Below the pieces are notes generated by a model. The model was given only the letters and a program-made list of their open reading frames with translations. It was not told the DNA's origin and did not search any database. The translations under genes and the position numbers were made by a program. A stretch of DNA of 40,034 nt, taken from a virus. The stretch is taken from positions 1-40,034 of IMG/VR virus record IMGVR_UViG_3300037827_000548. One strand, written 5' to 3'. Shown here piece by piece: positions 4,631-30,958 of the stretch. Every line of letters begins with the position of its first letter. Position 1 is the first letter of the stretch.

Positions 4631-5974
4631 TTACGCCTGGCTTAAAGGTATAATGACGCGCATACAGTATTGCTTAACAGCAAGTGAACCGTGTGTTTCG
4701 TCATAGATAATACCTTTCTGGTTCGCACCAAAGATTGAACCGTAGGTCATACGAACAGAAACTGCTGTTTCAGGATCGTATTCATTACCAGTATCAAACG
4801 GACGTTGATCAGGTAATTGTGGCATTGCTATATAGAATGCATCGCCGCCAACAACCAAACCTGCTCTATGGGATGGTAAGAATGTGACTTGCATACCAGG
4901 TTGTAATGCTTGATTTAAATTAACTGTTTGTCCGCCTGCCCAATTTAATGGCCATGCTAAATTAACAGTAATTACACCACTTGCATTTGATGCGGCATCT
5001 GCAACCACACGATTTTGAACCTTATTAGCGGATATTTTATGTCCGATATAGGTCAAGTAACGCATATTGCGGAAACCTGAAACGCCATCATTGAATTGGA
5101 ACATATCGCCCATTTTGACAGCGTTTGCATCAGATGCAGATGCGCCGGAGAATGTCAACTGAGTAACATTCTGACCCGATGGATCATTTGTGCTTACTAA
5201 GGTGAGGACGGTTTGATTTTCACCTACATCGCCTGCAAATTGAATAGGCAAAAAGTTAGATTGGTAATACTTAACGCGAGGTGTACCGAATTCACCAATT
5301 TCCCAAGACATAGCAATTTCATTGTTACGTTCTGGTGCAAATTGATTTAAGCCGGTTCCAACGATTGCAGGATAAACAGTATCAGGTAAGTAAACCTTGA
5401 TGCCATGTGATACACTGCCAAAATTTTTGAATAGCATTATCATTTGCGCGAGCTGTTGATAGCTCGTTAATTGCACAATTCCGTCCCCGAAGTATCGGAA
5501 TGGACCAGATTCTGTATGATATGCTCCGGTAGGCACGGATTCGCCTTCAGCATTTACAACCATCACAGGGACGGCAGAAATACAATTGAGTGCCAAGTTC
5601 CCTTCAACTTCATTCGCCAATTCAGTTAAAAACGATTTACCGAACACTTCAATGTATTCGTCTTCGCCTTTTTCTAAATTGAAAATACGTTGTTGAGCGG
5701 TAACGGTGAATGAGCTGTTAAACGCTTGATCGCAAGTAAGTGTTTCCACTTCTTGAATAGCAGGCTGCCATTTTGCAACCAAACCTGCTGAGGTTGTTGC
5801 GCGTGGCGGGGTGTCAAACGTGACACTACTGCCCAAATTGGCCTGAATCTTTTCGAAGTCTTTAAATTTTGTATTGGATGTGCTGACAAAACAGCACAAG
5901 TTTTGTAACAAGCCTAAAGACGATCTTTGATACGTCTGTACTTGTTGCAGTATATTATCTGCGTATAAAGGCAT
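4631..5974 (-). CDS. Major capsid protein (P22 coat type)
   Basis: A 447-residue protein, close to the 430 of P22 gp5. An N-terminal helical region with VTFDTPPRATT leads to the long spine-type helix (ELANEVEGNLALNCISA). An inserted beta domain follows around residues 250-350 (VKMGDMFQFNDGVSGFRN, the counterpart of the P22 segment with MKRGDKISF). The end returns to the HK97 fold (FYIAMPQLPDQRPFD). The scaffold gene directly upstream and the neck genes downstream agree. It is the shell subunit. Confidence 0.85.
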   Translation of the reverse strand: MPLYADNILQQVQTYQRSSLGLLQNLCCFVSTSNTKFKDFEKIQANLGSSVTFDTPPRATTSAGLVAKWQPAIQEVETLTCDQAFNSSFTVTAQQRIFNLEKGEDEYIEVFGKSFLTELANEVEGNLALNCISAVPVMVVNAEGESVPTGAYHTESGPFRYFGDGIVQLTSYQQLAQMIMLFKNFGSVSHGIKVYLPDTVYPAIVGTGLNQFAPERNNEIAMSWEIGEFGTPRVKYYQSNFLPIQFAGDVGENQTVLTLVSTNDPSGQNVTQLTFSGASASDANAVKMGDMFQFNDGVSGFRNMRYLTYIGHKISANKVQNRVVADAASNASGVITVNLAWPLNWAGGQTVNLNQALQPGMQVTFLPSHRAGLVVGGDAFYIAMPQLPDQRPFDTGNEYDPETAVSVRMTYGSIFGANQKGIIYDETHGSLAVKQYCMRVIIPLSQA

Positions 5975-6026
5975 GGTGAGATGCTCCTAACTATTAATCC
6001 ATTAAATAGTTCGGATAACTCGGTCT

Positions 6027-15673: not shown

Positions 15674-16185
15674 AGCTTTAAACTTAAGCACCACTTGCCA
15701 AAGCTAATCAACTCTTGTGTGGTTGCATTGCTTTTCATTAGATTGGCTAAATAGGAAATTATATGCACATTTCCAACGATATATCCCACATCTGGATTTA
15801 TTCTGTCTAAAGAAGGAGAGTTCTTAGATTTTTCTTTAGACAAATAATCTAATTTAATATTCAAGATAGGACAAACCTGTGGAGCAATGGATATTAAATA
15901 TGTTGAATTGATATCATGAGAAATATTTAAAATTTTAGCTCTCTTACGTGAACTTGAATACATCTGGGAACATTTATGTTTAACAGGATTTTTTAAAGAG
16001 TTTTCTTTTGTCCAATCTAATACTCTTTTCGCAGCTACAGAAGAATTTTTTTTATATTTATCAAAAGCCCATTTTCTTTTTTGTTCTCGATTACAGATAT
16101 TACATAAATAAATATAATTTCTAAGCCGATAATAACCACAGTTATCTTTAGAAAGAGGAACCTCGCAAACTCTACAATTTTTCAT
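15670..16185 (-). CDS. HNH endonuclease (free-standing)
   Basis: A 171-residue protein. Two zinc pairs at the start (CRVC, CNIC) precede a basic helical part. A C-terminal HNH-like core reads SPSLDRINPDVGYIVGNVHIISYLANLMKSNAT, in which SLDRI.P..GY..GNV.I is a well-known phage HNH signature. Such enzymes often act as homing nucleases. It lies at the end of the lysis operon, convergent with the plus-strand island. A hairpin with ATCCTA/TAGGAT arms sits just before its start. Which site it cuts is unknown. Confidence 0.8.
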   Translation of the reverse strand: MKNCRVCEVPLSKDNCGYYRLRNYIYLCNICNREQKRKWAFDKYKKNSSVAAKRVLDWTKENSLKNPVKHKCSQMYSSSRKRAKILNISHDINSTYLISIAPQVCPILNIKLDYLSKEKSKNSPSLDRINPDVGYIVGNVHIISYLANLMKSNATTQELISFGKWCLSLKL

Positions 16186-17052: not shown

Positions 17053-17260
17053 TTACGTCCTTATTAGCATCCTTAACGAAAATCGTATCACAATCATATT
17101 GACATTTCTTGCAGAAATAGAGGTGATTGTTTACATAAAGATCATCATTACAGCATCGACTAATAAGCATACAATTTCCAGATAAAAAAAGCCCGTTCTT
17201 GGTAAACGGGATCATGTAAGGAGGTAGCGTTGCATCTTTTTTAGTTATTAAGGGAGTCAT
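17000..17260 (-). CDS. Cysteine-rich hypothetical protein
   Basis: An 86-residue protein with CMLISRCC and YFCKKCQYDCD, at least six cysteines in the middle third, in a zinc-ribbon-like layout. It overlaps the VRR-NUC gene stop by four bases and the lysozyme start by 53 bases in another frame. The tail (DANKDVNDDTGRTSQ) is disordered and may be constrained by the overlap. The link to the lysis cassette may be only one of expression. Confidence 0.5.
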   Translation of the reverse strand: MTPLITKKDATLPPYMIPFTKNGLFLSGNCMLISRCCNDDLYVNNHLYFCKKCQYDCDTIFVKDANKDVNDDTGRTSQAEEPTCPT

Positions 17261-17676
17261 AATCGATTATTGACATAATCGTTGTAAATCTTGATGGCGT
17301 CATCACAGCCATACGCATAACTAGCATAATGACCAATTTTATTAAGTTTTGCAATCCATACCTCTTGGTCCGGATCTTTTTTAGCATCGCGCTGATCAAT
17401 ACGCTTAAATTCTAACCAAAGTCCGATATATTTATCATTTCGTAGCGGCCATTGATAATCCACTAATCCAGGCCGCATTCCAATAGCGATGAGCGCTTTA
17501 GTAAACCAGCTGTGACCTATTCGTTCATTTGCATGTTTTATCAGGTATTCGCCGAGGATAGGTATTCTCTGGGCGTATCCCCAGAACGCCTTGCATTCTT
17601 GATACTCGCTCGGTATTAGAATCTGCGATTGTAAGTCGAGAATCGGCCTCCGGCCTATGCGTCTCTTTCGTAACAT
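17257..17676 (-). CDS. VRR-NUC-type nuclease (Holliday junction resolvase-like)
   Basis: Start placed at 17676 (MLRKRRIGRR), with GGAG six bases upstream; 139 residues. PSEYQECKAFWGYAQR precedes the nuclease core: GMRPGLVDYQWP carries the catalytic Asp, and GLWLEFKR the Glu and Lys. A helical end follows (WIAKLNKIGHYASYAYG). This order (G..D, then E.K) is that of VRR-NUC enzymes, which phages use to resolve branched DNA before packaging. A 76-codon frame overlaps the N-terminal part in another register and is not called. Confidence 0.8.
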   Translation of the reverse strand: MLRKRRIGRRPILDLQSQILIPSEYQECKAFWGYAQRIPILGEYLIKHANERIGHSWFTKALIAIGMRPGLVDYQWPLRNDKYIGLWLEFKRIDQRDAKKDPDQEVWIAKLNKIGHYASYAYGCDDAIKIYNDYVNNRL

Positions 17677-17751
17677 TGCTATCTCCATATAGCCGTTTTA
17701 ATAAGGACATCTTGTCCTTATCGCCTAGATTAAAAACCATCTTTTTGTTTT

Positions 17752-18129: not shown

Positions 18130-18166
18130 TTACATACTAGATACATACTAGATACCTAGTATGTAA
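18130..18166. promoter_or_regulatory. CATACTAG inverted and tandem repeats (operator or initiator site)
   Basis: TTACATACTAG (18130-18140) and CTAGTATGTAA (18156-18166) are perfect 11-base inverted repeats. Between them ACATACTAGAT is tandemly repeated (18132-18142, 18143-18153). The octamer CATACTAG occurs here three times, and once more, inverted, at 19870-19877 on the far side of repA. This dense cluster sits upstream of the putative loader gene and next to the origin-like region. It is a likely binding site for RepA or a repressor. Confidence 0.6.
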
Positions 18167-18420
18167 GCTCTTGCTTTTAAAATAACCAAAAAAAGAAAAC
18201 TAGTAAATCTTTTTTAATCTTTCTGTATCTTTAGGAGTATCACTTAATGGGACTTATGAAACACTTAACTCCCATTTTTGTGGATAAGTGGGAGTTAGCG
18301 ATAAAACGGCATCAATTCGGCTATGAAATGGCAATGAAACGGCAATCATTATGGAAATATATTGATCATTTTATGAGCGCAGGCAATAGGAAGACTTGAC
18401 GTCTATATACGTCATGTTCG
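18165..18420. other. Putative plasmid-type replication origin (oriR)
   Basis: About 300 bases without a gene, directly downstream of repA. An AT-rich tract (about 18170-18235) could melt first. TAACTCCCA/TGGGAGTTA arms at 18266-18274 and 18289-18297 make a 9-base stem whose loop holds a perfect DnaA box, TTATCCACA (18287-18279, minus strand). GAAATGGCAAT and GAAACGGCAAT (18325-18346) are tandem 11-mers, with a related AAACGGCAT at 18304-18312. TGACGT/ACGTCA arms lie at 18397-18414. In IncFII plasmids repA is also followed by CIS and an origin with a DnaA box. Confidence 0.65.
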
Positions 18421-18438
18421 AGTTGGTTTATCTATGAA

Positions 18439-19461
18439 TCAACTGGGCGGCGGAAATTCTTTCTTTAGGAAATCCATAATCTGGACAGGGGTAAACCCTT
18501 GATGCTTTAGTTGTTCCATTCGAGCCTTTATAGCGTAACCACGGCCTGACTGTGGCGCTGAAACACGCTTAACGCAGTTTTGTACGCTGGGCTGCAAAGA
18601 TGGCGCTACTTTCTTTAAATACGAAGGTTTTTTATCAGGAAATGTCTTTTTTCGGTAGAACTCGCGTTTTGCTTTATTATTATCCAAGCGGCTTTGTTTT
18701 TCGTGGAACCTTATTGCGGATGTTTCACGGTCTTTTAGAAATTCCGGCATTAAGCCTAAGAAATCAAAAACTACATCTGTCGCATGAATTTGGGTAGCTA
18801 TATTTATTATTTTCCCATCATTGAGGGTTTTCTTTATTTCTATTACCTTAAAGAAACCCGAAGCCTGTAATATCTTCATGGAACGCTTAACACGGATAAT
18901 AGATATCCCGCTTTCTTTCGCTATTCGAGCGTAATCAAAATATACAAATTCATTTGCTCCGTCGAAAAATCCATAGGCCATTTTGTATAAATTAAGTCTA
19001 GAGATAATAGTTCCAAGAGTAATAAATATAATTGCCTCAAGACTTTCTGACCTTCTTTTTCGGGATGGTGTAAGTGGATGACAGTGGTATAAAAATCCGA
19101 GGAATTTGGGGTTGTCATACAATGAAATGAACCATTGAAGCATTCCAGTAGGTTTAAGTTTTTCTCTGTTAATATCCTTTCGAGAAATTCCTCCTCTAAT
19201 GCGACTCGCAAGATACTGTAAACGCTTTCCGCATTCTGATATTGAGTGAGGCAACCTAGTACCAGATTTAGTCTTTCCAAAAAGGGGAGGCACTTTGAAA
19301 TTATTTTTATCGTGTCCACAACGATTCCCATAAACAAATACTTGCGTATTTCCGCTTTTCTGGCTAACATCTGCCCCTGTAAGGACATTAATAGGCACGT
19401 TTGTGTTGTCCGGTCCCCGCGAAGGTGGTACAACACAAACGGGCATCCTTCCCGATTCCAT
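18439..19461 (-). CDS. repA: Plasmid-type replication initiator RepA (IncFII family)
   Basis: A 340-residue protein; the start at 19461 has AGGA seven bases upstream. A central region with SRKRRSESLEAII (133-145) leads to a winged helix (about 173-228: YARIAKESGISIIRVKRSMKILQASGFF). This follows the layout of IncFII-type RepA initiators (RepA of R1/R100 and many gammaproteobacterial plasmids). The first 100 residues are variable and the end is basic. RepA would bind an origin downstream of its own gene and load host replication factors, here probably with DnaA. A plasmid initiator inside a P22-like genome is unusual. Confidence 0.75.
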   Translation of the reverse strand: MESGRMPVCVVPPSRGPDNTNVPINVLTGADVSQKSGNTQVFVYGNRCGHDKNNFKVPPLFGKTKSGTRLPHSISECGKRLQYLASRIRGGISRKDINREKLKPTGMLQWFISLYDNPKFLGFLYHCHPLTPSRKRRSESLEAIIFITLGTIISRLNLYKMAYGFFDGANEFVYFDYARIAKESGISIIRVKRSMKILQASGFFKVIEIKKTLNDGKIINIATQIHATDVVFDFLGLMPEFLKDRETSAIRFHEKQSRLDNNKAKREFYRKKTFPDKKPSYLKKVAPSLQPSVQNCVKRVSAPQSGRGYAIKARMEQLKHQGFTPVQIMDFLKKEFPPPS

Positions 19462-19482
19462 AAACTTTCCTCAATTTACTCG

Positions 19483-19548
19483 CTAATCCGTGCGAATATC
19501 ATTAATAAATTTATTTGGGCGTCTCTCCGCTCTGTCACGCCGATTCAT
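19483..19548 (-). CDS. Leader peptide upstream of repA (21 aa)
   Basis: The 21 codons (MNRRDRAERRPNKFINDIRTD) begin at 19548 with AGGA 11 bases upstream and end 21 bases before the repA start. Two shorter frames upstream (19607-19627 and 19579-19599, six residues each) also have AAGG sites. In IncFII-type plasmids translation of a leader peptide governs repA. Coding status is inferred only from position, ribosome sites and that precedent. Confidence 0.35.
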   Translation of the reverse strand: MNRRDRAERRPNKFINDIRTD

Positions 19549-19642
19549 GCTTGCAAGATTCCTGGCGTTCTCGTATCTCTATTTAGGTCGCACTTCCATC
19601 TTGCCTTTACCGATATGGGCAAGCCATCTCAACCTTTTTTAA

Positions 19643-19745
19643 GGGAAGATCGGCGATAGAACCTTTGAATAGCATAGTCTGGAGTTGTCCTGGTCGTTCC
19701 CAGACGCCTTTACGTATGTTTCAACGCTCACCGTGCGGTCTTCCC
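19643..19745 (-). ncRNA. Structured RNA element in repA leader (possible copA/copT-like control RNA)
   Basis: Arms at 19643-19652 and 19736-19745 pair as a 10-base stem (GGGAAGATCG with CGGTCTTCCC, one wobble). They enclose an inner hairpin of GTCTGG/CCAGAC (19677-19682, 19700-19705) with a 17-base loop. It lies about 180 bases upstream of repA, inside the predicted transcript. The fold can form on either strand, so it may be the sense leader or a counter-transcribed antisense RNA, as copA/copT in IncFII plasmids. No strong plus-strand promoter was found. Confidence 0.45.
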
Positions 19746-19771
19746 CGCGAAGCTATTCTTAAGTACTAGAG

Positions 19772-19801
19772 ATAGTAACTATACACCAAACCCCAAGTCA
19801 A
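19772..19801 (-). promoter_or_regulatory. Promoter of repA, with palindrome ATAGTAACTAT
   Basis: On the minus strand TTGACT (19801-19796) and TACTAT (19777-19772) are 18 bases apart; the same hexamers occur in the plus-strand island promoter. An ATAGT-A-ACTAT palindrome (19772-19782) covers the -10, and TACTAGAGATAG, close to the TACTAGATAC units at 18130-18166, follows. It drives a repA transcript with a leader of about 310 bases. Confidence 0.5.
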
Positions 19802-19909
19802 CGACAAATATTCGACAAGCCGCTGAAATAACTAAATAAAAATAAAACTTGCAATGTAATTATCATATGCTAGTATGCGCCCCACGATGAACATAACACC
19901 AAGTAATAC
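19802..19909. other. Intergenic end of accessory operon
   Basis: No gene is seen. It is AT-rich with one inverted CATACTAG at 19870-19877. No terminator with a stem and T-tract is apparent, so accessory transcripts could read through toward repA. Confidence 0.4.
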
Positions 19910-20110: not shown

Positions 20111-20552
20111 CGGCCTGCGTGCAAACGTGTCCTGTGCTTTCGCCAGTGCAATTTGGCTTGCTTGCATTACTGATACCCAATTCATCCGCTGTTTGTTTGG
20201 CGAGGACGAGAAACATCCTGTCATAACGTTCTTTAGCCTCAAGATAATCTTTCTTATCCACATTTAACTTTTCCTTATCTTCCATTTCGATAATGCGTTT
20301 CAATTCATGCTTATCCTCTCTTATGTCTCCATACCATTTTAGAGCCGTAAAGAATGTCCACAAAGAATTCGAGATAAAAGCGCCTAAGCCGATGCCACTT
20401 GCAGCGTAACCTTCTTTATATAACCAGTACCCATTCCACGCTATACCTGCAAAATTAAGCGCTAATAAGCCCATCTGCGCACATAAGCCCTTAGACGTAA
20501 ATTTAATTGACCACTCTAAACTTGATTTTCTCATTTCCATCCAGCTCATCAT
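20091..20552 (-). CDS. Two-segment membrane protein
   Basis: A 153-residue protein. Membrane segments lie at about 27-45 (LALNFAGIAWNGYWLY) and 52-73 (GLGAFISNSLWTFFTAL), and a charged helical part follows (DKEKLNVDKKDYLEAKERYDRM). The end is cysteine-containing (NCTGESTGHVC, DVQNC). Most of the chain after the second segment probably faces one side of the membrane. It overlaps the preceding gene by four bases. No family was recognised; a holin-like or signalling role cannot be told from sequence. Confidence 0.55.
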   Translation of the reverse strand: MMSWMEMRKSSLEWSIKFTSKGLCAQMGLLALNFAGIAWNGYWLYKEGYAASGIGLGAFISNSLWTFFTALKWYGDIREDKHELKRIIEMEDKEKLNVDKKDYLEAKERYDRMFLVLAKQTADELGISNASKPNCTGESTGHVCTQADVQNCH

Positions 20553-27082: not shown

Positions 27083-27343
27083 TTATATTCTTTTGTTTAC
27101 AATTTTATTTTTAAATCTTTCATCATAATAATAATGACAGCTAGCACATAGCATAATGAAATTCTCTCTTTTAAATTCATAGACTTTGTCTTTTAACTTC
27201 GCCCAATGATATTTTTTACTTTTATTTTTACATAATTTATTTTCACATCTATCGGCTTTCCCAAAATTTTGATTGATCCATAAATGTACTGTTCCGTAAG
27301 TTTTATTTTGATCTCGGATATCATCAATATTAAGCTCTATCAT
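27083..27343 (-). CDS. HNH-type endonuclease, short (86 aa)
   Basis: An 86-residue protein. CENKLCKNKSKKYHWAKL followed by MLCASCHYYYDER is the zinc-bound HNH layout (a Cys pair, then the HW..L element, then CxxCH). The family phrase L..KCHY.YD of many phage HNH proteins corresponds to MLCASCHYYYD. Its start overlaps the XRE gene stop by four bases. It is probably a free-standing, homing-type nuclease or a DNA-nicking partner. It is short but appears complete. Confidence 0.65.
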   Translation of the reverse strand: MIELNIDDIRDQNKTYGTVHLWINQNFGKADRCENKLCKNKSKKYHWAKLKDKVYEFKRENFIMLCASCHYYYDERFKNKIVNKRI

Positions 27344-27567
27344 TCTTCATCTCTAATATCTGTATATTTTATGCTCATACCTGCTCGTTCATTTGCAACA
27401 TCGATTATTTTCTTGATTGCCATTAATCCAGGTTTGCGCTTCCCTCTTTCGTAATAAGATAGGCTGGTTTGATCAATTCCTGACCATTCTGCAAGTTTAC
27501 CCTGAGAAATACAGCATTTTATCCTTATTTCTTTGATTAAATCTTTGATTATCATTGCCGTCCCCAT
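27340..27567 (-). CDS. XRE/Cro-CI-type HTH regulator
   Basis: A 75-residue protein, or 71 if the ATG at 27555 is used; both have GGGGA or GGGA ribosome sites. The helix-turn-helix is ISQGKLAEWSGIDQTSLSYYERGKRKPG, with the typical Q..LA...G....T.S..E.G...P pattern. It stands at the head of the accessory operon, divergent from the recombination genes, like a phage immunity region. It probably controls both directions through TTAAACTA/TAGTTTAA at 27604-27631. Whether it keeps a prophage silent is inference. Confidence 0.8.
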   Translation of the reverse strand: MGTAMIIKDLIKEIRIKCCISQGKLAEWSGIDQTSLSYYERGKRKPGLMAIKKIIDVANERAGMSIKYTDIRDEE

Positions 27568-27853: not shown

Positions 27854-28318
27854 ATGTTAAATACATACAAAAATAATTTTTACTCAAAAGTACTTATTCC
27901 TAATGATAAAGGATGCATGCTTTGGACGGCATCTAAACTTCCAACAGGATACGGTCAATTCACATATAACAATATACAAACACGAGCTCATAGATTCTCT
28001 TACGCCTTACATATAGGAAAAATACCTAAAGGTATGTTTGTTTGTCATACATGTGATAATCCTTCTTGCGTTGCACCTGATCATCTTTTTATTGGGACTC
28101 CAAGAGATAATGTTTTGGATAAAATGAGAAAAGGTCGAGGAAGATGGGGTCAACATGAAAAAAACGGAATGGCTAAGCTTACTTTAGAGAAAGCAAATTA
28201 TATAAGGAAACTTATTGATGATGATTTTTTCTCTTTAACAAAAATAGCTGAAATATTCGGGGTTAGTGATAGCGTTATTCATGAAATCCGAGCAAATAAA
28301 ACTTGGAGGAATGACTAA
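27854..28318 (+). CDS. HNH homing endonuclease with C-terminal HTH
   Basis: A 154-residue protein. GCMLWTASKLPTGYGQF opens it; RAHRFSYALHIG, then CHTCDNPSCVAPDHLFIGTPRDN is the HNH_3 signature (Cys64, His65, Cys67, Cys72, His77). A helix-turn-helix at about 125-150 (LTKIAEIFGVSDSVIHEIRANKTW) gives DNA specificity. Such genes move as selfish insertions between phage genes. The Gly/Arg stretch KGRGRWGQH joins the two domains. The next gene starts one base past its stop. Confidence 0.85.
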   Translation: MLNTYKNNFYSKVLIPNDKGCMLWTASKLPTGYGQFTYNNIQTRAHRFSYALHIGKIPKGMFVCHTCDNPSCVAPDHLFIGTPRDNVLDKMRKGRGRWGQHEKNGMAKLTLEKANYIRKLIDDDFFSLTKIAEIFGVSDSVIHEIRANKTWRND

Positions 28319-28856: not shown

Positions 28857-29738
28857 ATGGCTTTAAGAGGCGTAAAACCAGCAGCAATACAGAAAAGATT
28901 GAAAGCATTATTCTACGGTGGCGCTGGCGTTGGTAAAACAACGGCTAGCATTAGTTTCCCCCGACCTTATTTAATCGATACGGAAAAAGGCGCTGAAAAC
29001 ACTCAGTACGCCCGTATCTTAGAAAAGAACGGAGGTGCTATATTTCAAACGTGCGATTTTGACGAACTAATCCGCGAAGTAAAATCCTTACTAACAGAAA
29101 AACACGAATTCAAAACGCTAATCATCGACCCGCTAACAACGCTATACAATGATTTACTTGATAAGTCAGCGGCACTTTTAAAAGCTCAATCTAAAGAGAA
29201 AGACGCAACCGGCACTGAGTTTGGTCGTCATTATGGCGAGGCAAATAAAAAGATGAAACATTTACTAGCTTTGTTATTGAGGTTAGACATGAATGTTATT
29301 ATCACATCGCACGCCAAGAATGAATATGCGGGTAATATGTCGGTCATTGGATCCACTTTCGATTGCTACAAAAAATTAGATTATCTTTTTGATCTTGTTT
29401 TTGAAATTCAAAAGCGGGGTAAGGAACGTGTGGGTATTATAAAAAAATCACGTATTGAAGGTTTTCCAGATGGCGAAACATTTCCTTTCAGTTATGATGA
29501 GATCTCAAATCGTTATGGTAAAGACATACTTGAGAAAGATGCTACGGCACAAGTGTTAGCAACGCCGGATCAAGTTAAAGAAATCGCAAGGCTAATTGAT
29601 TTAATCAAAGTGCCTGAAGAGGTTTCGCAAAAATGGCTAGACAAGAACGATGCTGAAACATGGGAAGAAATGCCGGTGGATGCAATTCAAAAATGTATTG
29701 ACCACCTTAAGTCTAAAATTCAAGGAGATGCAGCATGA
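28857..29738 (+). CDS. Sak4-like RecA-fold ATPase (AAA_24)
   Basis: A 293-residue protein. Walker A is GGAGVGKTT at 21-29 and Walker B TLIID at 87-91. DTEKGAENTQYA lies after the first strand, and MNVIITSHAKNEY is the sensor-like strand. This layout belongs to AAA_24/Sak4, a single-strand annealing and recombination ATPase of phages. It usually works with a phage SSB, and here an SSB-like gene follows directly with a four-base overlap. A C-terminal tail of about 60 residues is helical and charged. Confidence 0.85.
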   Translation: MALRGVKPAAIQKRLKALFYGGAGVGKTTASISFPRPYLIDTEKGAENTQYARILEKNGGAIFQTCDFDELIREVKSLLTEKHEFKTLIIDPLTTLYNDLLDKSAALLKAQSKEKDATGTEFGRHYGEANKKMKHLLALLLRLDMNVIITSHAKNEYAGNMSVIGSTFDCYKKLDYLFDLVFEIQKRGKERVGIIKKSRIEGFPDGETFPFSYDEISNRYGKDILEKDATAQVLATPDQVKEIARLIDLIKVPEEVSQKWLDKNDAETWEEMPVDAIQKCIDHLKSKIQGDAA

Positions 29739-30190
29739 GTTATAGTTTTGATCCAATGACAGAGGAAGAAATTGCGTCAAGTAATATTATTGAAGATGGT
29801 GTTTATAATTTCGAAGTTGTTAAATCAACCCGAAAGACCTCCAAAGCAGGAAATCCAATGGCCGAGCTTCAATTAAATGTCTGGGATAAAGACGGCAAGA
29901 TTAATCCTGTTTTTGATTATCTCATTTTTTCAAAGATTGCTTTGAACATCAAAAAGGTTAAACACTTTTGTGATGCTGTTGGCCTTCAGGAGGAATATAA
30001 GAAAGGCCAAATGCCTGAAGAGCTAGAGCGTTTCTGCGGAAAATTACAGCTCGGTACACAGGAGGAACGTCCAAATCCCAATGGCGGAGTATGGGCTCGA
30101 AAAAATACTGTTCTTGATTATATCGCAGGTGATCCGCAATCGAGCAAAAAACCTGTAGTTGATGAATTTATGGACGATATTCCCTTCTAG
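29735..30190 (+). CDS. DUF669 / SSB-like protein with DDIPF tip
   Basis: A 151-residue protein. An OB-type beta start (EDGVYNFEVVKSTRKTSKAGNPMAELQLNVWD) is typical of DUF669, a phage single-strand binding family. The last residues, DEFMDDIPF, are nearly the acidic C-terminal tip of bacterial SSB (which ends DDDIPF). In the host that tip recruits replication and repair enzymes. The Sak4-like gene directly upstream completes the pair. It would coat ssDNA and attract host partners; this is inferred from family and tip. Confidence 0.8.
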   Translation: MSYSFDPMTEEEIASSNIIEDGVYNFEVVKSTRKTSKAGNPMAELQLNVWDKDGKINPVFDYLIFSKIALNIKKVKHFCDAVGLQEEYKKGQMPEELERFCGKLQLGTQEERPNPNGGVWARKNTVLDYIAGDPQSSKKPVVDEFMDDIPF

Positions 30191-30256: not shown

Positions 30257-30958
30257 ATGGAAAACGTGCTTATTTTAGATACAGAAACAACAGGTCTCGA
30301 TGCATCGAAAGGGAAGGTTCTTGAAATTGCGGGTATACTTTACAACATCCCAACACGATCTATTCTTGCTCAAGTATCAACTTTATGTTATGCAGAGGAA
30401 AATCCAGCTTTTGAGATTAACCGGATTTCGGTTGCATCATTAAAAAAAATACCGACATTCACAGAGTCTTTAGCAATGAATTTATTGCTTGATATGATAA
30501 AGGAGGCAGATGCCATTGTTGCACATAACGCTGAATTCGATAAAAAATGGGTTGAAACGATTCCTCTACTTGCTCTTTCCTTTAGGCAAAAAAAATGGAT
30601 ATGTACTCGCAATGACGTTATTTGGCCTATTCGTAAGGGGGTTGCTCTCAATCTTGTACATATTTGTGTCGATCTTGGGGTTCCTGTCGTCAACGCTCAT
30701 CGTGCTTTGTCAGACTGCCTTCTTCTTATCGAGGCAATTGAATGTATTGATGATATCGATCACTTTCTCGATAAGTCGGGCAAAGGACGAATAACCTATC
30801 ACGCAAATGTCGGATATGAAAACCGACAAATTGTAAAAGATGCAGGGTTTGCTTGGGACAATCTAAAGAAAGTCTGGCACGCCAAACTTACGCCAGAACA
30901 AGCAGCCACAATGCCGTTCACTGTTTATCCGGCAGAAAGTACTTGCTTAACAGTTTAA
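30257..30958 (+). CDS. DnaQ-like 3'-5' exonuclease (DEDDh)
   Basis: A 233-residue protein. Exo I is LDTETTGLD (Asp8, Glu10), Exo II AHNAEFD (89-95, Asp95), and Exo III AHRALSD (His148, Asp153): a complete DEDDh set. A C-terminal small domain (about 178-225) has VKDAGFAWDNLKKVWHAKL, matching the phage K..GF.WD...K.W motif. Preceded by a possible promoter TTGTGT-17-TATAGA at 30198-30226. It may trim DNA ends for Sak4-mediated annealing or proofread. Host polymerase is needed as no phage polymerase is found. Confidence 0.85.
   Translation: MENVLILDTETTGLDASKGKVLEIAGILYNIPTRSILAQVSTLCYAEENPAFEINRISVASLKKIPTFTESLAMNLLLDMIKEADAIVAHNAEFDKKWVETIPLLALSFRQKKWICTRNDVIWPIRKGVALNLVHICVDLGVPVVNAHRALSDCLLLIEAIECIDDIDHFLDKSGKGRITYHANVGYENRQIVKDAGFAWDNLKKVWHAKLTPEQAATMPFTVYPAESTCLTV

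Follow-up and report, generated by a model that had tools for sequence, protein, structure and literature searches.

Phage-plasmids have been described from several groups of tailed phages. Those grouped by Pfeifer and Rocha (P1, SSU5, N15, pMT1 and others) encode plasmid Rep and Par proteins, and some carry IncFIB/IncFII replicons; they are myophages and siphophages of 55–111 kb, and a short-tailed P22-like group is not in the table (PMC11652158). Phage-plasmids with ParA are also already known from metagenomes (PMC4490671). Plasmid prophages are known in podoviruses as well: Ochrobactrum podovirus POI1126, a podovirus like the phage described here, has partition-like genes and a prophage for which replication as a plasmid was demonstrated, but it is 60 kb in size, its kin are Bcep22-type podoviruses, and no RepA was reported there (PMC5492332). 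Replicon exchange, finally, is known from the parABS/RepA phages of mycobacteriophage cluster A, in which a repA and par cassette is swapped among similar phages and the prophage is a plasmid (PMC7157519). Removal of parABS, which is dispensable for plasmid replication in these RepA phages, raised the copy number (PMC7157519). The group described here resembles them in these respects; however, the cluster A phages are actinobacterial and have a different RepA, and their cassette replaces the integrase (PMC7157519), whereas here Rep replaces the phage initiator.

IMG/VR record IMGVR_UViG_3300037827_000548 was analyzed over its whole length of 40,034 bases, referred to as the window. It is the genome of a P22-like phage with a portal protein, terminase, capsid protein, head closure protein, scaffold-like protein, holin-like gene and endolysin; the portal, terminase and head closure proteins matched phrog_156, phrog_38 and phrog_578, respectively. 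Plasmid replication genes accompany the virion genes in this one complete genome, as in phage-plasmids. No tRNA was found in the window, and no polymerase was recognized among the genes scanned. The record ends in an exact 127-bp repeat, which is probably an assembler overlap from a circular or circularly permuted molecule, since a repeat of identical length is present in two sister contigs (S7, described below, is among the contigs bearing it). An 8-kb contig, IMGVR_UViG_3300028021_000008 (L003), matches the window at 100% identity in its portal and terminase proteins, and the same phage or population may therefore occur in a second record. Three HNH/endonuclease VII-like genes, at 15670–16185 (−), 27083–27343 (−) and 27854–28318 (+), have no counterpart in S1, S2, S4, S7 or S11 (see below) and are therefore probably recent insertions. 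The gene at 12829–14130 (−) encodes a DNA methyltransferase fused to a ParB-like nuclease domain and is kept in S1, S4 and S11; in this phage, the ParB-like portion is unlikely to be a partition protein. The main features are listed in Table 1.

Table 1. Features of the replicon, the virion module and the early region in the window.
Feature	Position	Strand	Evidence or remarks
Major capsid protein	4631..5974	-	phrog_283; 88-89% identical in S1, S4, S7
P22-type portal protein	8661..10847	-	phrog_156 1.4e-55; tblastn to P22-like podovirus portals
Terminase large subunit	10880..12418	-	phrog_38 3e-73
Nuclease/Holliday junction resolvase-like gene, after loader	17257..17688	-	phrog_5702 E 4.8e-8, phrog_824
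Putative helicase loader, lambda P-like N-terminal half, 125 aa	17752..18129	-	phrog_109 E 0.0027
AT-rich stretch after repeats, candidate melting region	18160..18240 (about)	-	sequence; presumed function
Origin direct repeat 2, TTAAGTG	18241..18247	-	offset 192; 21 nt from repeat 1
Origin direct repeat 1, TTAAGTG, presumed Rep site	18262..18268	-	offset 171 from rep stop
Origin DnaA box TTATCCACA, perfect	18279..18287	- (rep coding strand)	152 nt past rep stop
rep, plasmid-type replication initiator, 340 aa	18439..19461	-	tblastn to plasmid Reps; family alignments; AF2
rep untranslated leader, about 300 nt	19462..19771	-	3' end common to sister S4
Site of parA and small putative ParB gene of S4; cassette absent in window	19462..19909		synteny
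Candidate rep promoter TTGACT-18-TACTAT	19772..19801	-	pattern match only
Small XRE regulator, 75 aa, heads early leftward operon	27340..27567	-	no homologue in sisters compared
Sak4-like annealing ATPase and single-strand-binding protein	28857..30190	+	profile matches
DnaQ-like 3'-5' exonuclease	30257..30958	+	profile matches

The first-pass annotation had described the initiator as an IncFII-family RepA and had proposed several searches by which this could be checked. Rep contains SRKRRSESLEAII at residues 133–145, a GNRCGHD motif, an RKRRSES motif and a winged helix. Homologues were indeed found on plasmids: tblastn gave matches to Photobacterium damselae (7e-14) and Aquicella lusitana (8e-6), and these Reps led on to repP-11A, to Nitrosococcus, Methylocaldum, Aeromonas and Robbsia plasmids, and also to Pseudomonas phage PARCL1pr and Aeromonas phages. 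The members of the aligned family have in common a GNxCGH motif close to the N-terminus (in two members, partial or shorter, it is missing or was not read), an RxxRSE motif and a winged helix; the window has all three features of these RepP-11-like initiators, together with an origin of the TWAAGTG-pair type. When the family profile was compared with IncFII RepA by hhalign, E values of 2.6e-5 and 2.7e-4 were obtained (probability 75 and 41). The comparison with the O-like initiator of sister S7 gave a probability of 0.15, and by profile similarity the window Rep does not match the lambda O type.

The profile search of the window Rep against PF02387 gave no match, nor did the NCBIfam IncFII models (NF040977/TIGR03474). 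NF040977 (RepA_IncFII_LM) was reached by 7/16 family members, the window Rep excluded, with a best value of 1.7e-7; two members scored singly against it were both below the cut-off. Direct family searches with the window Rep were weak (RepL 0.009, below the cut-off), the best phage-family match was phrog_26369, a replication initiation protein (weak, E 0.0029), and direct sequence searches of Pfam, NCBIfam and the PDB gave nothing decisive. An AF2 model from a single sequence was unusable; a model from six sequences had a core at residues 139–270, with pLDDT mostly 73–90, in which the winged helix could be seen, but the fold is generic and had no discriminating PDB match (none with E at or below 1e-3). 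Judged by these comparisons, Rep is a plasmid initiator of a sister family to IncFII RepA, and not IncFII RepA itself. IncFII/L/M RepA is a distant relative of this family (IncP-11 repP-11A/Nitrosococcus/Aeromonas/Photobacterium/Aquicella), which is known otherwise from plasmids and two other phage types. IncFII is reached only by profile comparison, and the family name given in the first-pass annotation is right only in a loose sense.

Directly downstream of rep lie the perfect DnaA box and AT-rich DNA that had been reported from the first reading of the sequence. The box alone proves little, since the genome has two perfect boxes against 0.54 expected from shuffles; what counts is its position. 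(The second box, at 20254–20262, falls within an early gene and was regarded as a chance occurrence.) As in IncFII origins, TTATCCACA is found downstream of the initiator gene on the coding strand; its offset from the rep stop in the IncFII plasmid is 176 nt, with equal orientation. The offsets in five other Rep phages, introduced below, are 144, 156, 155, 127 and 132 nt (S2 with one mismatch), and perfect boxes in equal orientation occur at 132 nt in Robbsia and 142 nt in PARCL1pr. The two TTAAGTG repeats follow the box. Such a pair occurred in 1/600 Markov strands, never near a DnaA box; the TAAGTG columns are invariant at both repeats in a five-phage alignment, and a pair of TWAAGTG-like motifs about 21 nt apart recurs in most plasmids and phages of the family. 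Since the pair is beyond chance, the repeats are likely sites at which Rep would bind. The direct repeats claimed earlier were probably a different set, a TACATACTAGA tandem at 18131–18155, which is missing from the sisters and was for this reason dismissed as a set of origin iterons; origin repeats are present, but in the form of the conserved TTAAGTG pair. Between origin and loader, at 18130–18166, the TACATACTAGA units form a tandem and inverted repeat (arms at 18130–18143 and 18153–18166) that is possibly an operator. With a Rep of a plasmid family and an origin conserved with plasmids, the claim that a P22-like phage carries a plasmid-type replicon is strongly supported, and we regard the presence of such a replicon, initiator gene plus downstream origin, as almost certain.

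The next gene after the origin encodes the putative lambda P-like loader, for which phrog_109 was matched by 4/6 orthologues, all weakly (best 4e-4); the resolvase-like nuclease and then the lysis genes follow. Upstream of rep, TTGAC(T/A) is found in three sister phages too, and the count of promoter-like sites in the window is not above that in shuffles. Folding of the rep leader was not unusual (z −0.44), and an Rfam search of the window gave no match. No tap peptide, CopA-like leader or control element was identified in the approximately 300 nt of this leader. The XRE regulator does head an operon, as had been noted. At the place of the Sak4-like and single-strand-binding genes, S1, S4 and S7 have a RecT/Bet-like annealing protein and a Gp157-like gene, both read from sequence.

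Scans of IMG/VR yielded five more phage contigs with a Rep of the window type: 3300025949_000012 (S1), 3300011415_000012 (S2), 3300021405_000029 (S4), 3300050821_016676 (S11, partial) and 3300050821_006249 (S13). The window has its virion module in common with S1, S4 and S13, the capsid proteins being 89, 88 and 68% identical; S11 shares its genes for lysis, loader and methylase with the window, and S2 is a more remote relative. A tree of the Rep proteins places the window together with S1, S4, S11 and S13 in a single clade (98/98), in which S1 is basal; the tree is weak at depth and gives no firm place for S2. S13 (L051) also has an RtcB-like RNA ligase gene at 1355–2581 (−), recognized from sequence only.

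In 4/5 of these contigs (S1, S2, S4 and S11), parA and a small putative ParB gene adjoin rep. The cassette lies directly upstream of rep in S1, S4 and S11, where the small gene is weakly Arc-like; in S2, rep is adjoined by a divergent parA and a small gene, and in S13, which has no parA, a small putative ParB-type gene is left as an orphan. In S1 (L015), 8-bp iterons GAAATCTT flank parA and its small partner gene at 5013–5054 and 5969–6001 and likely constitute parS or an operator; S11 has a shorter array of the par-cassette iterons. The window and its closest sister, S4, are syntenic to the left and right of rep, and the par cassette is exactly what the window misses: tblastn with five ParA proteins found neither a match nor a remnant of ParA in the window. 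ParA was also found in none of 24 near-complete relatives that do not have a window-type Rep, compared to 4/6 contigs with Rep (Fisher p 5.5e-4, with related phages counted as independent). The parA sequences of S1, S4 and S11 are 62–84% identical; because of this and because the parA-bearing S1 is basal, par was probably ancestral, and both the window and S13 would have lost it. One of the 24 relatives, S7 (3300036827_000083), has a capsid protein 88% identical to that of the window and carries an O-like initiator at the position of rep, with neither Rep nor ParA. The replication module has therefore been swapped, and the par cassette along with it.

No tyrosine integrase was found in the window, S1 or S2, nor in the S4 and S11 records, and no serine recombinase was found in the window. 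This agrees with the first-pass annotation, which had used the missing integrase to argue for a plasmid prophage. However, the 24 relatives without a window-type Rep have no tyrosine integrase either, so the argument is weak and, alone, uninformative. The window has no CI-like repressor, its only repressor-like gene being that of the XRE protein in a Cro-like place, and no toxin–antitoxin pair was recognized there in a non-exhaustive search. Searches with the capsid protein against bacterial plasmids, and with Rep and terminase against bacterial genomes, found no relative, and thus no lysogen is known. The plasmid relatives of Rep are mostly gammaproteobacterial, a weak hint that the host may be as well. 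Plasmid records of 28–50 kb from Arsenophonus nasoniae and Acinetobacter encode terminases 25–31% identical to that of the window; these phage-size plasmids are likely other phage-plasmids.

Partition genes serve the segregation of a replicating plasmid. Because Rep comes with such genes, the Rep-bearing group most likely represents phage-plasmids, probably kept as plasmids instead of being inserted into the chromosome. For the window, the best explanation, to which we assign a probability of roughly 0.6, is that it carries a complete replicon of the IncP-11/Nitrosococcus/Aeromonas family and that its prophage is a circular plasmid, which would make the phage temperate. Rep would bind the two TTAAGTG repeats and DnaA the adjacent box; the AT-rich stretch would melt, and the P-like loader would bring DnaB, starting theta replication. 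The genome would be a circular plasmid in the quiet state, aided in most sisters by the partition cassette of ParA and the small protein. In the lytic state, the Rep-origin would seed replication, and the Sak4, single-strand-binding and exonuclease genes would make concatemers for headful packaging. With its par cassette lost, a plasmid prophage of the window, if any, would depend on copy number or another stabilizer. The earlier proposal of a circular plasmid prophage thus fits the group, in which parA lies beside rep in 4/6, better than the window, where par is absent and rep is followed by a P-like loader.

Several observations do speak against a plasmid prophage: neither the window nor S13 has ParA, the window also has no recognized toxin–antitoxin pair or CI-like repressor, and rep followed by a P-like loader is what a lytic replication module would have. 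The main rival, which we consider unlikely, is that Rep serves lytic initiation alone, in a virulent phage that captured a plasmid initiator and origin in place of its O-like initiator. The order of Rep, loader and resolvase-like nuclease is the O–P order of lambdoid phages, S7 has an O-like initiator at this very position, and the integrase-less relatives without Rep may themselves be virulent. However, it is not evident what a purely lytic phage would use the parA beside rep for, and the full plasmid layout has been kept in the origin. A still less probable reading is that an ancestral phage-plasmid lost par and is heading back to a lytic or unstable carrier state, with rep now mainly lytic. 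Such a reversion would fit the finding that parA and its partner gene are cleanly missing from the site orthologous to S4, as well as the orphan putative ParB-type gene in S13, but loss of parABS leaves plasmid replication of the RepA mycobacteriophages intact and can raise their copy number (PMC7157519); missing par does not, therefore, exclude upkeep of the window genome as a plasmid. That the contig is a plasmid in which a defective P22-like prophage resides, or a chimera made in assembly, is scarcely credible: plasmid replicon and phage genes do occur together on one circular contig, but this is one compact phage genome with head, tail and lysis gene sets, and relatives of the rep-origin-loader block are present in the phage genomes of five other contigs, for which reason a chimera was rejected.

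With this replicon, P22-like short-tailed phages join the lineages with plasmid-type replication modules. More tentatively, an integrase-less, probably virulent P22-like lineage could have turned into phage-plasmids in one step, by exchange of the O-like initiator for the rep-origin and par; the plasmid Rep would drive both lytic and plasmid replication through the phage loader, and some members, including the window, would have dropped par since. Capsids that are 88% identical but go with an O-like phage initiator in one genome and with a plasmid replicon in another constitute a clean natural experiment, which makes testable both a change of lifestyle through exchange of one replication module and the service of a plasmid initiator in lytic replication together with a phage loader. 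A search of the open literature, which is part of all literature, turned up no earlier description of this replicon family in P22-like phages.

Among known systems, the IncFII and IncL/M RepA plasmids (R1/R100 type) resemble the window in the succession of Rep and origin, but no TTAAGTG repeats like those of the window were seen in the IncFII plasmid used for comparison. A Rep of the window's family also occurs in Pseudomonas phage PARCL1pr and Aeromonas phage Ahp2, and both phages encode a ParA-like protein, which adjoins Rep in PARCL1pr; they differ in their unrelated tailed virions and in having an integrase. The IncP-11-type replicon (repP-11A, LC700336) and the related Nitrosococcus, Aeromonas, Photobacterium and Aquicella plasmids have the same GNxCGH and RxxRSE motifs and winged helix, paired TTAAGTG-like repeats downstream and, in some, a DnaA box. 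These replicons are found in plasmids, whereas that of the window belongs to a P22-like phage genome of 40 kb, and its origin is followed immediately by a phage helicase loader.
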